Source: an uncultured Bacilli bacterium | Lineage (GTDB): Bacteria; Bacillota_I; Bacilli_A; RF39; UBA660 | NCBI GenBank assembly: GCA_947589735.1 | Contig: CANQCR010000009.1 | Location: forward strand, 1 to 64,000 | Reading direction: 5' to 3' | Length of the DNA stretch: 64,000 nucleotides | Shown: piece by piece, positions 57,927-63,697 of the stretch | Numbering within the stretch: the first letter of the stretch is position 1 | Layout of the letters: every line of letters starts with the position of its first letter | Position numbers and translations under genes: made by a program | The notes under the pieces: generated by a model | What the model was told of the DNA's origin: nothing | Database searches by the model: none | Seen by the model: the letters and a program-made list of their open reading frames with translations, nothing else

Positions 57927-57954
57927 TTGACAATAATAAAAAAAGATGTATAAT
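57927..57954 (+). promoter_or_regulatory. Promoter of the first structured leader
   Basis: TTGACA (57927-57932), 16 bases and TATAAT (57949-57954). The same arrangement precedes the third copy at 62741. Confidence 0.88.
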
Positions 57955-57962
57955 ACGAAGTT

Positions 57963-58063
57963 AAGTGAGGAGATATAAGCATATTTGTGAGCTATCTCGG
58001 GTTTGCCTACACAATTATAAAATAATTGGAGTCACGAAATAAAAACGATTCGTGGCTTTTTTT
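57963..58063 (+). promoter_or_regulatory. Structured RNA leader, copy 1: candidate riboswitch with terminator
   Basis: P1 is GTGA (57965-57968) with TCAC (58032-58035). P2 is GAGATA (57970-57975) with TATCTC (57993-57998), capped by the conserved TAAG and GAGC. P4 is CAATTAT (58012-58018) with ATAATTG (58022-58028), preceded by TACA. The terminator stem (58031-58038 with 58049-58056, then seven T) uses the same GTCAC that closes P1, so P1 and terminator exclude each other. I could not assign it to a known riboswitch class. Confidence 0.75.
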
Positions 58064-58078
58064 GTAGTTGCGAAAAAA

Positions 58079-58185
58079 ATAGTGAGTATGTATAAGTTTC
58101 ATCGAGCTACATAGAGATTAATTCTTACACGTGAATCACGGAGTCACTATCAAGTTTACACATTGATTTTGTCAACGTGATTTTT
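58079..58185 (+). promoter_or_regulatory. Structured RNA leader, copy 2 in tandem: candidate riboswitch
   Basis: The same skeleton with different stem sequences: P1 ATAGTGA (58079-58085) with TCACTAT (58144-58150), P2 TATGTA (58087-58092) with TACATA (58108-58113) around TAAG and GAGC, then TACA and P4 CGTG (58130-58133) with CACG (58137-58140), then GAGTCAC. A weaker terminator may form from GTCAC (58143-58147) and GTGAT (58177-58181) with a T-run. The compensated stems support a conserved RNA. Confidence 0.68.
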
Positions 58186-58264: not shown

Positions 58265-59248
58265 ATGGCCGTAATAGAAGTAAAAGGGTTATCAAAAACG
58301 TTTAAAGTAAAACTTAAAGATAAAGGCTTTAAGGGTAGTTTAAAAGCGATGGTAAAACCTAAGTATAAAACTGTTAATGCCGTTAGGGATATCAGCTTTA
58401 CAGTTGATAAGGGAGAGATTATTGCCTTTATTGGGCCAAATGGTGCCGGTAAAAGTACAACTATTAAAATGATGACAAGCATTCTTTTTCCTGATAAAGG
58501 CTCAATTAAAATATTAGACTTTGATCCTAAAAAAGATCGCAAGAAATTATCTTATGAAATTGGAACTGTCTTTGGTCAAAAAGAACAACTATGGACACAT
58601 TTAACCCCTTACGATAATTTCAAGTTTTTTGGCGCTATCTATGATATTCCTGAAAAAGCGGTTGAAAAGAAAATTGACGAATTAAAGATGCTTTTTGAAC
58701 TCGATGAGTTTATAAACACACCGGTTCGAAATTTATCTTTAGGTCAAAGAATAAGATGTGAAATTGTTGCTTCTTTAATCCATAATCCGAAGATATTATT
58801 TTTAGATGAACCAACGATTGGTTTAGACCCGGTTGTTAAAGAAAATATTCGTTCTCTTATCAAAAGAATGAATAAAGAGTATAAAACAACTATTTTCTTA
58901 ACAAGCCATGATGTTGGCGATATCGAAAAGTTATGTAAAAGAGTTATCATTATTAATAATGGCCAAATTGTTTTGGATGATTCAATGGACAATTTAAAAT
59001 ATCATTATTTAAATAAAAAGATTGTTGAAGCTAAGATGAAAGAGCGAGTTAATCTTGATGATGAAGATGGCATTACTATTTTAAAAGACAAAGGATACAA
59101 TTTAAAAATTGAAGTTGATACAACTAAAAGAAGTGTTGCCGATGCGATTAAATTATTAAACCCCGATAATATTATTGATATTAATATTTCTAATATCCCT
59201 CTTGAGGATATCATCAGTAGTATTTATCAAAATAAGGATCAGTTATGA
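58265..59248 (+). CDS. ABC-2 exporter ATP-binding protein (COG4586 type)
   Basis: A 327-residue nucleotide-binding subunit. Walker A GPNGAGKST near residue 60, Q-loop VFGQKEQLW, signature NLSLGQRIRCEI near 160, Walker B ILFLDEPTIGLDPV and H-loop LTSHD are intact. The N-terminal stretch (KVKLKDKGFKGSLKAMVKPKYKTVNAVRDIS) and the C-terminal extension of about 80 residues are typical of COG4586, always paired with two ABC-2 permeases as here. RBS GAGGATGGTGAT. Preceded by tandem RNA leaders that probably control the operon. Confidence 0.93.
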   Translation: MAVIEVKGLSKTFKVKLKDKGFKGSLKAMVKPKYKTVNAVRDISFTVDKGEIIAFIGPNGAGKSTTIKMMTSILFPDKGSIKILDFDPKKDRKKLSYEIGTVFGQKEQLWTHLTPYDNFKFFGAIYDIPEKAVEKKIDELKMLFELDEFINTPVRNLSLGQRIRCEIVASLIHNPKILFLDEPTIGLDPVVKENIRSLIKRMNKEYKTTIFLTSHDVGDIEKLCKRVIIINNGQIVLDDSMDNLKYHYLNKKIVEAKMKERVNLDDEDGITILKDKGYNLKIEVDTTKRSVADAIKLLNPDNIIDINISNIPLEDIISSIYQNKDQL

Positions 59249-60036
59249 AAAAGTATTGGTTTATAATTAAAACAGAGATAATGAGTAATTTACAGTACAG
59301 ATTTGATGTTATATTTGGCTTTGTTAGTTACTTTATTTTGTTATTTATTTTATTTAATTTATGGCGATACCTATATAGTGATACAAGTGGACTTATCAAT
59401 GGCTATAGTATGTCCCAAATGATGTGGTATGTCGTTATGACAGAAATACTTTGGATGACTTTAGGTGGTCGAAAGTTTAATACGAAAATATGTAATGATG
59501 TTAAAACGGGTAATATAACATACAACATTAATAAACCTTATAGTTATATTGGTTATTCATTATCGATGCATTTAGGCGATATATTAGTTAAGGGTGTTCT
59601 TTATGTTTTAATTGGTATGCTTATCGGCTTTATCTTTTTAGGTCACTTTCCAAGTTTAAGTATTATAGAAATAATAGTTGTTATTATCGCATCACTATTA
59701 GCTACAATTATTAGTATCTTTATCATTATGGCTTTAGGCTTAATATCGTTCTTTATTGAGGATGCAACACCTTTTTATTGGGTATATAGTAAATTAATTT
59801 TAATATTGGGAACCATTTTCCCAATCGAATATTTTCCAACTGTTTTACAAAAAGTTTTAAACTTTAGTCCGATTTATGTTGTAAGTTATGGCCCAGCTAA
59901 ACTATTTGTCGATTTCTCATGGGATAAGGCTATCACCATTATTGGTGCTCAATTAATTTATCTAGTTATTACTTATGGAATTTGTAAATTAATCTATCAG
60001 AAAGGGGTGAAGAGGATAAGTGTTAACGGCGGTTAG
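59245..60036 (+). CDS. ABC-2 family permease, first subunit
   Basis: A 263-residue membrane protein with six segments. The start KKYWFIIKTEIMSNLQYRFDVIFGFVSYFILL and the segment MSQMMWYVVMTEILWMTLGGR are typical of the ABC-2 permeases that go with COG4586 ATPases. It overlaps the ATPase gene by four bases and the second permease by 17 bases, so the three are made together. Confidence 0.9.
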   Translation: MKKYWFIIKTEIMSNLQYRFDVIFGFVSYFILLFILFNLWRYLYSDTSGLINGYSMSQMMWYVVMTEILWMTLGGRKFNTKICNDVKTGNITYNINKPYSYIGYSLSMHLGDILVKGVLYVLIGMLIGFIFLGHFPSLSIIEIIVVIIASLLATIISIFIIMALGLISFFIEDATPFYWVYSKLILILGTIFPIEYFPTVLQKVLNFSPIYVVSYGPAKLFVDFSWDKAITIIGAQLIYLVITYGICKLIYQKGVKRISVNGG

Positions 60037-60814
60037 AAATCAATGTAAAGTCATTTTTTTATCAATAAAGTATGCCTTAATGCGAGAATTACTTAATAAG
60101 ACAACTTTTATTTCGAATATTATATTTATGATATTAAATAATTCTAGTATGATTGTTCAATGGATTGTGTTATTTTCAATTAAAGATAATTTTGGTGGCT
60201 ATACTCTAAAACACGTTATTTTATTAATTGGGATATCTTCAAGCCTTTATGGATTTGCGCATTTCTTCTTTGAAAAAAGTTTTAAATTGTCCGAGACAAT
60301 TAATTCGGGTAAGTTAGATGCTTATATTGTTCAGCCTAAAAATATATTGTTATCAACGATAACATCAGATATTCAAGTTTCCGCTTTAGGTGATTTAACA
60401 TTTGGCTTAATTGCTTATTTCATCTATGGTTTTACTATTCGAGGCTTTATTCTTTACTCTCTTTTCACCATAACTGGTGGCATAATACTAGTATGCATTT
60501 CCGTTATCCTACATAGTTTGAGCTTCTGGTTTAGTAATGCTGATGCTGGTGCGGATACTTTTAATGGTATGATGATTAATATATCAACCTACCCCGATAG
60601 TATTTTTAAAGGGATAGTTAAGTGGCTATTATTTACAATTATTCCTGTTGGTATTGCTAACTATATTCCTGTTAAGGTAATGGTTTCATTTAATCCTTAT
60701 CTTCTTTTAATTAATGTCGGTGTATGTTTACTATTTATTCTTCTTGCCTTCACCATCTTTTATCGAGGACTAAAAAGATATTCTTCAACGAATTTGATGG
60801 CTGCTAGAGTTTAG
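60020..60814 (+). CDS. ABC-2 family permease, second subunit
   Basis: A 264-residue membrane protein with about six segments, of the COG3694 kind: KYALMRELLNKTTFISNIIFMILNNSSMIVQWIVLF near the start and GKLDAYIVQPKNILLS near 90. It probably forms a heterodimer with the other permease. The start is GTG, inside the preceding gene, after GAGGATAA. Substrate unknown; related systems export lipophilic or cationic compounds. Confidence 0.9.
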   Translation: MLTAVRNQCKVIFLSIKYALMRELLNKTTFISNIIFMILNNSSMIVQWIVLFSIKDNFGGYTLKHVILLIGISSSLYGFAHFFFEKSFKLSETINSGKLDAYIVQPKNILLSTITSDIQVSALGDLTFGLIAYFIYGFTIRGFILYSLFTITGGIILVCISVILHSLSFWFSNADAGADTFNGMMINISTYPDSIFKGIVKWLLFTIIPVGIANYIPVKVMVSFNPYLLLINVGVCLLFILLAFTIFYRGLKRYSSTNLMAARV

Positions 60815-60841: not shown

Positions 60842-61570
60842 ATGAAGAAAATATTTTTAACAAGTGATATGGGATGTAGTAAGAAAATTAATAACCAAAG
60901 ATATGCAACCCCATTGGATAATCGAAATGGGATTGTTGAACATTTAAAAAAGGTTTTACGACGTGAGAAAAACTTTGTGTTTTTTGTTAGTGATCCTAAT
61001 GATTATGAAAAAAGTTATAGTTATGCGAAACTCACGTTTGAAAGTTTTAAAATGAGCGGTTTTAACTTTGCTTCTTTTATAATTGTTGATGGTAAATATG
61101 ATGGCAATTTAAAAGAAGATGTTCTTAATGCCGATTTAATCTTTTTGACCGGTGGGAAAACTCTTACGCAAATGCGCTTTTTTGAGAAAATTAATTTAAA
61201 AGAATTATTAAAATCTTATAATGGCGTCATTATCGGCCAAAGTGCCGGATCTATCAATCTTGCTTATAAAGTTATTTGTCCTCCTGAGGAAGAAGGGGAA
61301 ATTGGTACTAATTATATTTGGCAAGGCTTAGGCCAAACCCAGGTTAATGTCATTCCTCATTTTAAATTAGAAGTAAATGAAGACCTTGATAAAAAGTTAA
61401 GAAATGAATTACTCAAACTATCTTTTGATAATATTTTATATGCTATTAGTGATGGCGCATATATTTTTGCTGATGGGGAGTATAAGATAGTATATGGGAA
61501 ATCTTACTTAATTAGCCAAGGTCATATTGAAAAGATATGCAATGATGGGGAATCAAAAAGGATGGAATAA
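60842..61570 (+). CDS. Peptidase E-like protein (S51 family)
   Basis: S51 peptidases cleave Asp-containing dipeptides or related substrates. The 242-residue protein has LIFLTGGKTLTQM near residue 98 and the nucleophile segment VIIGQSAGSINLA near 130 (Ser in GQSAGS), followed by a His/Asp-containing region (VIPHFKLE near 175). The N-terminal MKKIFLTSDMG start is as in the family. Follows the ABC operon without terminator, and is followed by two acetyltransferases. Confidence 0.88.
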   Translation: MKKIFLTSDMGCSKKINNQRYATPLDNRNGIVEHLKKVLRREKNFVFFVSDPNDYEKSYSYAKLTFESFKMSGFNFASFIIVDGKYDGNLKEDVLNADLIFLTGGKTLTQMRFFEKINLKELLKSYNGVIIGQSAGSINLAYKVICPPEEEGEIGTNYIWQGLGQTQVNVIPHFKLEVNEDLDKKLRNELLKLSFDNILYAISDGAYIFADGEYKIVYGKSYLISQGHIEKICNDGESKRME

Positions 61571-61571
61571 T

Positions 61572-62150
61572 ATGAAAAATAATATTGTCATAGAAACAAA
61601 AAGATTAATTTTAAGACCTTGGCAAATAGAGGATGCCGATGCACTTGTCGATGGCCTTAATAATATTAATGTTAGTAAATATCTTGCGGGAGCGCCTTAT
61701 CCATATACTTTAGACGATGCTAAAAACTTTATAACTAAAACAATTGAAGAAGGTTTATATAATTTTGCTATTATATTAAAAGATACTAACGAAGTTATTG
61801 GTGGTACCCAAATATCTAATATCAGTTATGCTAATAAGACGGCTGGTGGCGGTATTTGGATAAACGAAAGATATCAAGGAAAGGGTTATGGTTCAGAAGC
61901 TTTTAAAGCTAGAATTAAATATGCTTTTGAAGTTTTAAATTTAAGAAGATTAGAAAATGGTTATTTTAAAAATAATGAGAGAAGCCATCAAATGCAATTA
62001 AAATTCGGCTATCAAGATGAGGGAGTACGAAGGCAAAGATTTATCTCCAAGGCAACCGGTAATATTGAAGATGAATATATTACAGGATTATTAAAGAGTG
62101 AAGTAAGAGGCCTTGAAGAGTTTGATTTTAAAGTAAAAGAATTGAAGTGA
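61572..62150 (+). CDS. GNAT acetyltransferase (RimJ/RimL type)
   Basis: A 192-residue acetyltransferase: ETKRLILRPWQIEDADALVDGL at the start and the acetyl-CoA loop ERYQGKGYGSEAFKARIKYAFE near residue 98, then LRRLENGYFKNNERSHQMQLKFGYQDEG. Substrate unknown; RimJ-type members acetylate protein N-termini or small molecules. The ATG at 61572 follows AAGGATGG; upstream in-frame ATGs lie within the preceding gene. Part of the ABC-peptidase-GNAT operon. Confidence 0.9.
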   Translation: MKNNIVIETKRLILRPWQIEDADALVDGLNNINVSKYLAGAPYPYTLDDAKNFITKTIEEGLYNFAIILKDTNEVIGGTQISNISYANKTAGGGIWINERYQGKGYGSEAFKARIKYAFEVLNLRRLENGYFKNNERSHQMQLKFGYQDEGVRRQRFISKATGNIEDEYITGLLKSEVRGLEEFDFKVKELK

Positions 62151-62154
62151 TAAA

Positions 62155-62730
62155 ATGGAAGAATTCATATTTATAAGACCAACTAAAGAATATGAACAAC
62201 AAGCCTTTGATTATATTCAAGAATTTAAAGATTATAATTCTAATATTAATGGTGTTGGAGGCTTACGTCGTTATATTGGCGATTATGATGGCTGGTTAAA
62301 ACATTTAGAAGAAGATCGCTCAAGAACAATGGATGATGATCGTGTTCCTGGGGAAACGTTTATGTTAATAAGGAAAAGCGATAATAAATTAATTGGTCTT
62401 GCTAATATAAGATTAAGATTAGATGATCATTTATTGATGTATGGCGGTCATATCGGATATGGTATTCGTCCAACAGAAAGAAAAAAGGGCTATGCTTCTT
62501 ATCAGCTTTATTGCGCTTTAAAGTTTTGCCAAGAAATAGGTTTAGAAAGAGTCTTAGTAACTTGTGATAAAAATAATTTAGGTTCAGCTAAGACCATTCA
62601 AAATAGTTTTGGGGTTTTAGAAAATGAAGTAATCGATGATAATGGTGAAGTTCTTCAAAGATATTGGATTGATGTTAACGATGCTATTCAAAAATTGCAA
62701 GCCAAATATGAACATCAAAAAAACTTATAA
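62155..62730 (+). CDS. GNAT acetyltransferase
   Basis: A 191-residue acetyltransferase of a different subgroup from its neighbour: LIGLANIRLRLDDHLLMYGGHIGYGIRPTERKKGYASYQLYCAL near residue 80 carries the acetyl-CoA site (RPTERKKGYA), followed by LERVLVTCDKNNLGSAKTIQNSFGVLE. Five bases after the other GNAT gene. Last gene of the operon; the RNA leader at 62777 follows. Confidence 0.88.
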   Translation: MEEFIFIRPTKEYEQQAFDYIQEFKDYNSNINGVGGLRRYIGDYDGWLKHLEEDRSRTMDDDRVPGETFMLIRKSDNKLIGLANIRLRLDDHLLMYGGHIGYGIRPTERKKGYASYQLYCALKFCQEIGLERVLVTCDKNNLGSAKTIQNSFGVLENEVIDDNGEVLQRYWIDVNDAIQKLQAKYEHQKNL

Positions 62731-62740
62731 AAGGTCTAAT

Positions 62741-62768
62741 TTGACATATTTTAAAAAGAGTGTATAAT
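62741..62768 (+). promoter_or_regulatory. Promoter of the third structured leader
   Basis: TTGACA (62741-62746), 16 bases and TATAAT (62763-62768), as before the first copy. Confidence 0.88.
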
Positions 62769-62776
62769 ACAGTGCC

Positions 62777-62889
62777 AAGTGAGGAGATATAAGCAATTTG
62801 TGAGCTATCTCGGGTATTTAAAAAGGGGCTAAATACTTACACAATTAATAATTGGAGTCACGAATAATAAAATATTCGTGACTTTTTTT
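62777..62889 (+). promoter_or_regulatory. Structured RNA leader, copy 3: candidate riboswitch with terminator
   Basis: P1 GTGA (62779-62782) with TCAC (62858-62861); P2 GAGATA (62784-62789) with TATCTC (62806-62811) around TAAG and GAGC; an extra hairpin P3 GTATTT (62814-62819) with AAATAC (62831-62836); TACA; P4 CAATT (62842-62846) with AATTG (62850-62854). The terminator is a perfect 10-bp stem (62857-62866 with 62873-62882) and seven T, and shares GTCAC with P1. Confidence 0.78.
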
Positions 62890-62917
62890 CACGAATAAAA
62901 AGAAAGGGATGAAGAAA

Positions 62918-63697
62918 ATGACATTAGAACATCTTCTTGCCGAAGAAGTAATGCCAGATAGAGCCCAAGAATTTAGACAATATGCTAGCGATAATAAGGC
63001 GGTATCAGCTAAGGATGTTGAAACACTATTAGAAAGTTATACCGGAAGGGATGCTGGGTTAGTTTCTCGCACTTTAGAGTATGTGAAGAATCATCTTAAT
63101 TCTGAACTTGAACCAATGGTTTATAAGACAGCGGGTTATGATGAAGAAGCTTTAAGTTATCAAGATGAAATTAATAGTGGTAAATCTTTAATATTAGATA
63201 TGCCGACTGGTTATCGTTGCCGGTATAGTGATATAAAATTATTATCCGTTGCTAAAATTAAAAAGTCTTTAGCCCATACCACAATATATGGTGAAAACTT
63301 ACTATTGCATTACCGGAAAATGGGTGAAAGTTGTTTGCCACAAATTAAACTAGCTCTAGCCCTTTTTGAAGAGCAAATAAAAAGACAAGCAAAATTAACT
63401 GATCGCCGCGATATCAACTTATTTACTCTTGATTATGATGCTCGGGCGGAAATTGTTTGGAACAATTACGCTGAAATTATTGCTTACTTGTTATACCATA
63501 CTAAAGAAACTTTAGTTTGGGGTGAATTAACGGAAGCACAAAAGAGATTATATCTACTTTCTGTTATTAATTCCCAAGGTAATAATCAAACTAAAACTCA
63601 TATTGTTCAGAACATTGCAAGTTATACAACTTTACCAGAATTAGAAAAAGTTGAGAAACATAATCTTAGAGTATTAAAACGGTTTATCGTTAAATAA
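62918..63697 (+). CDS. Unrecognised protein controlled by the structured leader
   Basis: A 259-residue soluble protein, mainly helical. A segment in the middle, GYDEEALSYQDEINSGKSLILDMPTGYRCRYSDIK near residue 75, precedes basic helices. No catalytic motif, signal or membrane segment is seen, and I do not recognise a family. The ATG at 62918 is favoured by spacing from GAAAGGG; ATG 62909 is too close to it. It stands alone behind the same RNA leader as the ABC-2 exporter, so they probably answer to the same signal. Confidence 0.75.
   Translation: MTLEHLLAEEVMPDRAQEFRQYASDNKAVSAKDVETLLESYTGRDAGLVSRTLEYVKNHLNSELEPMVYKTAGYDEEALSYQDEINSGKSLILDMPTGYRCRYSDIKLLSVAKIKKSLAHTTIYGENLLLHYRKMGESCLPQIKLALALFEEQIKRQAKLTDRRDINLFTLDYDARAEIVWNNYAEIIAYLLYHTKETLVWGELTEAQKRLYLLSVINSQGNNQTKTHIVQNIASYTTLPELEKVEKHNLRVLKRFIVK

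Follow-up and report, generated by a model that had tools for sequence, protein, structure and literature searches.

Why should one short RNA occur three times, twice in direct succession, among the exporter and acetyltransferase genes of an uncultured Bacilli bacterium? The window, a stretch of 64,000 nucleotides of contig CANQCR010000009.1 in which all features discussed lie on the forward strand, has the order RNA, RNA, ABC ATPase, two permeases, S51 peptidase, two GNATs, RNA, orphan protein. Sequence comparison establishes the structure of this RNA, its conservation, the strand that it shares with a terminator, the position of its promoter and its association with particular genes.

In the leader RNA four stems, P1 to P4, meet in a junction; the stems covary strongly, the loops are near-invariant, and the window has three copies of the RNA, A, B and C. 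Copy A (57961-58035; 79.5 bits with covariance model R1) follows a promoter at 57927-57954 whose -35 and -10 boxes are both perfect (TTGACA at 57927-57932, 16 nt, TATAAT at 57949-57954). Its P1 pairs 57965-57968 with 58032-58035 and its P2a pairs 57970-57975 with 57993-57998, followed by a UAA/GAGC internal loop, P2b and P3; the 3' half consists of a UACA junction, P4 (58012-58028) and a GAG junction. The assignment is supported by covariation and by an MFE structure that agrees with the comparative one. The intrinsic terminator at 58030-58063 has UCAC in common with P1, and its T run occupies 58057-58063 (-9.8 kcal/mol, z -4.9). Copy C (62775-62861; 77.9 bits, E 1e-17), a close paralogue of copy A at a distance of 4.8 kb, has a longer P3, an MFE structure that likewise agrees with the comparative one, and a P1 in which GUGA/UCAC pairs 62779-62782 with 62858-62861. 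Its promoter (62741-62768, with TTGACA at 62741-62746, 16 nt, and TATAAT at 62763-62768) is also perfect, and its intrinsic terminator (62856-62889, T run 62883-62889; -13.9 kcal/mol, z -6.8) again has UCAC in common with P1. Copy B (58078-58151; 74.9 bits, E 8e-17), which is absent from the first-pass annotation of this DNA, is a diverged second aptamer in tandem within the copy A leader, 39 nt 3' of copy A and ahead of the ABC genes, and it has no promoter of its own; copy C sits 4.6 kb 3' of it. The copy B terminator (58133-58185; -14.7 kcal/mol, overlap 2 nt) has the P4 3' strand, GGAG and part of UCAC in common with the aptamer, and with its shorter T run it is a weaker case than the terminators of A and C.

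Behind copies A and B lies an ABC-2 exporter, consisting of an ATP-binding protein (58265-59248; PF00005, with drrA, the nearest NCBIfam model, below its cut-off), permease 1 (59245-60036; ABC2_membrane_3 below cut-off, assigned from operon position and an order kept in relatives) and permease 2 (60020-60814; PF06182 ABC2_membrane_6, E 7e-34). The operon continues with a peptidase family S51 protein (60842-61570; PF03575, E 2e-12) and two GNAT-type acetyltransferases (61572-62150 and 62155-62730), both of which cluster with GNAT proteins. The orphan protein behind copy C (62909-63697) belongs to a cluster of 6 members (cluster 6) whose family recurs behind the RNA in other genomes; it has no Pfam match, and its predicted fold is unusable at pLDDT 43.

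The same kinds of genes recur elsewhere. Overall, the RNA precedes GNAT acetyltransferases, the three-gene ABC exporter, peptidases, methyltransferases and proteins of no known type. With genes in the relatives called by a simple longest-ORF script, the first five genes behind 104 leaders include an exporter ATPase in 41 cases and a GNAT-cluster protein in 41. Pfam assigns 58 of 91 operon proteins to GNAT, four to S51 peptidases, three to nucleoside phosphorylases and two each to S66 peptidases, dCTP deaminases, methyltransferases and NUDIX proteins, in a sample hand-picked outside the exporter, with Clostridia included, whose counts are not frequencies. Exporter and RNA were both searched for in 57 relatives, and their co-occurrence is 10 of 10 with and 1 of 47 without (agreement in 56 of 57; Fisher p 3e-10, an optimistic value since the genomes are related). 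The exporter permease is found in 12 of 81 relatives, and the RNA accompanies all 12 operons, directly in nine and with an extra gene between in three. Direct tandems like that of A and B in the window number 17 in the family's loci. In ten loci there are also extra RNA copies behind the first gene or genes of the operon, ahead of ABC or other genes and mostly lacking a promoter; from their placement, the promoterless ones look as if they act as internal attenuators.

Some downstream genes are of other kinds. In many operons the first gene after the RNA encodes a small protein of one group (L191, 1355-1936, and 22 related proteins). The members tested have no convincing Pfam match, and the predicted fold (pLDDT 80) matches the Spo0A DNA-binding domain (1lq1, 1fc3; probability 1.00, TM 0.78 on target, E 0.02), seemingly with no receiver domain. 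In three loci of the Clostridia set the RNA lies ahead of a gene of glutaminyl-tRNA synthetase type, which is not what one would expect next to a detoxification switch, and in three Bacilli members it lies ahead of a 2-isopropylmalate or homocitrate synthase type gene.

Homologues were collected by way of a window-derived pattern, relatives in the same taxonomic family, a 14-copy alignment and, from it, covariance model R1, and they comprise 121 copies in 81 genomes, all from a single Bacilli family, and 21 more mainly from Clostridia. R1 finds the RNA in 60 of 386 genomes in one draw from the window's family and in 55 of 385 drawn from the order, the two draws overlapping, while among 346 genomes of the class it matches only members of the window's own family. 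All 121 copies (fetched loci and window) score above 38 bits, and there are no weaker matches down to E 0.1. A DNA pattern scan of named genomes together with model searches places the same RNA in 16 of 341 genomes drawn from the Clostridia, and its culturable carriers there include Alkaliphilus transvaalensis, Thermoanaerobacterium saccharolyticum, Tissierella simiarum and Clostridium senegalense. Three pattern matches on viral contigs were not confirmed by the covariance model.

We inspected these alignments for support of the junction. In the first, with 14 copies, 98.5% of cells are paired and 11 of 19 pairs show two-sided changes; with 121 copies the same 19 pairs have 96.5% of cells paired, and 16 show two-sided changes. 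None of 500 shuffles is as high on both measures, and slid controls reach 28-40%, in an alignment that was fitted to the structure and with shuffles that ignore relatedness. For these two reasons the diverged set of 21 sequences, mainly from Clostridia, is the more independent support: there 98.5% of cells are paired, and the base pairs in P2 and P4 differ from the window's. The unpaired core is identical in both sets, with a G after P1, UAA facing GAGC in P2, a G before P3, UACA between P3 and P4, and GAG before UCAC. Across the two classes, some 16 bases in the junctions and loops are unpaired and near-invariant. Covarying stems combined with invariant unpaired bases make the structured domain that a riboswitch would have. 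A UUGUG/CACAA pseudoknot, possible in copy A, is not conserved, being missing from locus L003 and from second copies.

How this domain might control the genes behind it is suggested by the strand that P1 and the terminator share. Transcripts of A and C that end with the aptamer (at 58035 and 62861) fold as the comparative structure, closed by GUGA/UCAC. When they are lengthened to the U run, P1 alone dissolves, and the fold with the terminator is more stable, by 8.6 and 10.7 kcal/mol, than the best one that keeps P1; these are equilibrium values, and the proposed switch is co-transcriptional. The first-pass annotation had located GTCAC at 58031-58035 and 62857-62861, correctly and each within a hairpin followed by seven T, and had taken it to close P1. 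That is right for TCAC, but the leading G lies outside P1, as part of the terminator and of the P4-P1 junction. Its description of the terminator as strong agrees with the hairpin energies and z values given above. It had further argued from two independent copies with terminators that differ outside GTCAC. Copies A and C are close paralogues, however, and their terminators, both GTCACGAA...TTCGTG, are more alike than claimed, so that independent evidence has to come from the homologues. There, under a rule requiring -9 kcal/mol or better and a 5' arm that pairs at least two of the four UCAC bases, 110 of 121 copies have a terminator whose 5' arm takes the 3' strand of P1; once the sequence that separates UCAC from the T run is shuffled, 0, 3 and 5 remain. 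In the Clostridia set 18 of 20 copies have a terminator overlapping P1, and the remaining two fail the T-run rule only. The P4 3' strand and GGAG join the terminator arm as well in many copies. Terminator sequences vary widely among the homologues while the sharing is kept, and on this comparison such variation is a better carrier of the argument than the window's two near-identical copies. Sequence and folding energy together describe a mutually exclusive aptamer and terminator with the aptamer on the antiterminating side, present in the window as first proposed and conserved across two classes of Bacillota, and it follows that stabilisation of P1 should switch the downstream genes on. One diverged copy (L074, 2001-2079) has no terminator, and its junction GGAG occupies the place expected for the next gene's ribosome-binding site, which suggests translational control.

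What stabilises P1 could in principle be an RNA-binding protein and not a small molecule. Such a protein-responsive antiterminator would hold the junction together and block termination, strand sharing would look identical, and the small proteins with the Spo0A-like DNA-binding fold, often first behind the RNA, could in principle feed back on it. The protein-antiterminator sites known so far are mostly short hairpins. The present RNA differs from these in having its many near-invariant unpaired bases in two classes, and no single protein family goes with it, the first genes belonging to many clusters. We regard a protein partner as unlikely. Highly improbable is a constitutive partial terminator that merely sets basal expression beneath a decorative upstream fold: the predicted terminators are strong and the RNA has no known ligand, as this would have it, but invariant loops, stems that covary in both Bacilli and Clostridia and the kept strand sharing would have no reason to persist where nothing switches.

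The start of the transcript bears on a further alternative. Under a rule allowing at most 3 of 12 mismatches, 89 of the 93 copies that stand first or alone have a -35/-10 pair ending a few nucleotides 5' of P1, typically at a distance of 8 to 11 nt; among control stretches 69 of 407 have such a promoter. Copies that directly follow another have a promoter in 8 of 17 cases, none of them perfect, and those behind a gene of the same operon in 2 of 10. Judged from these positions, the transcript should start at or within a few nucleotides of P1. Given this placement, copies A and B would lie on one transcript, and the RNA is predicted to be the 5' leader of the genes it would control, with the promoter upstream and same-strand genes downstream. 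If the transcript starts at P1 as predicted, there is also no space ahead of it for the leader peptide needed in ribosome-mediated attenuation, such as that induced by antibiotics that inhibit translation. The regulated genes do resemble drug resistance genes, which are often under such control, and in the aptamers of 43 of 142 copies a GTG frame runs through without a stop. Most copies contain stops, however, aptamer lengths fall in all three frames (52/50/40), and the changes in the stems are compensatory and not codon-like; no translated leader ORF overlapping the alternative hairpins was found, and we consider this mechanism extremely improbable. Hardly credible, finally, is a tRNA-sensing leader, a compact analogue of the T-box, which the glutaminyl-tRNA synthetase type and 2-isopropylmalate or homocitrate synthase type genes would favour: Rfam scans place no T-box match on the RNA (RF00230, with its stem I, specifier loop and antiterminator bulge, occurs elsewhere in the same loci), the other operons have no amino-acid theme, and the RNA, only about 75 nt long, has no specifier loop at a constant position.

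On the strength of the conserved, pocket-like core, the transcript start, the strand sharing and the detoxification genes, we think it likely that all the copies act as transcriptional ON riboswitches and represent a class outside Rfam, one that is often arranged in tandem and probably senses a toxic compound. RNA polymerase would start at P1, and the nascent RNA would fold into the four-stem junction, with the near-invariant unpaired bases (the G after P1, UAA/GAGC in P2, UACA between P3 and P4, and GAG between P4 and P1) as the binding pocket. If no ligand is present, the next 25 to 30 nt would capture the 3' strand of P1, and in many relatives that of P4 also, into the terminator, and transcription would stop. 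A bound ligand would hold P1 closed and block the terminator, and the exporter, peptidase and GNAT genes would be transcribed. Copies A and B in series would form a double gate, which should sharpen the response. We infer direct ligand binding, ON polarity in cells and the type of ligand; that a ligand acts as the stabiliser of P1 is suggested by the near-invariance of the unpaired core, by how widely the RNA is distributed and by the detoxification-type genes. Such a ligand is probably toxic, a compound exported or modified by the products of the regulated genes. One objection to this reading is that P1 has no more than 4 bp and is predicted to be far less stable than the terminator; switching must then depend on folding kinetics and on the ligand, which is beyond proof by energies alone. 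Against a ligand, the conserved core could also be explained by a protein partner, and the diversity of the genes points to no single ligand.

More tentatively, the RNA might be a direct sensor of an antimicrobial family or of related toxic metabolites, such as nucleoside-like or aminoacyl-nucleotide compounds, the type of compound being a guess from enzyme classes. If this were true, a single aptamer class, in gut Bacilli and Clostridia alike, would govern a resistance regulon made up of acetyltransferases, peptidases of families S51 and S66, nucleoside phosphorylases, methyltransferases and exporters. With unusually clear comparative evidence behind it, the RNA seems to be an orphan riboswitch class not yet catalogued. 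Its carriers include culturable Clostridia in addition to the uncultured Bacilli of the gut, and its ligand, once identified, would point to the substrates of the ABC exporter that recurs with it and of numerous GNAT enzymes with no assigned function.

Searches of the window and Clostridia copies against Rfam 15, at gathering and relaxed thresholds, gave only chance-level scores, and the open-licence main texts describe similar systems but not the present RNA, which may have been described earlier under another name. The trpB motif (RF04312) is a riboswitch candidate that likewise has a terminator, and the right shoulder of its P1 contains an antiterminator strand (PMC11109978); the present RNA scores 21 bits against its cut-off of 59, and fold and genes differ. 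Guanidine-IV and Gd4v, the latter an orphan variant, mostly from gut bacteria, whose ligand is unknown, share with the present RNA a short Bacillota leader, a terminator-based ON switch, and GNAT and multidrug exporter genes (PMC9788692). As published, however, a pseudoknot joins their two hairpins, of which the second serves as terminator (PMC9788692), whereas the present RNA has a four-stem junction backed by covariation and a separate competing terminator, and that description sets it apart from both. The histories of the yjdF and ykkC orphan riboswitches offer a parallel in which a complex aptamer precedes an eclectic set of efflux and modification genes, with a sequence and structure different from those of the present RNA, which matches no Rfam family (PMC7266159). 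In pseudo-cooperative tandem riboswitches, as in the tandems described here, two complete homologous aptamer and terminator units are arranged serially in one leader (PMC9481103); the present RNA differs from them in placing further copies between the genes of one operon.
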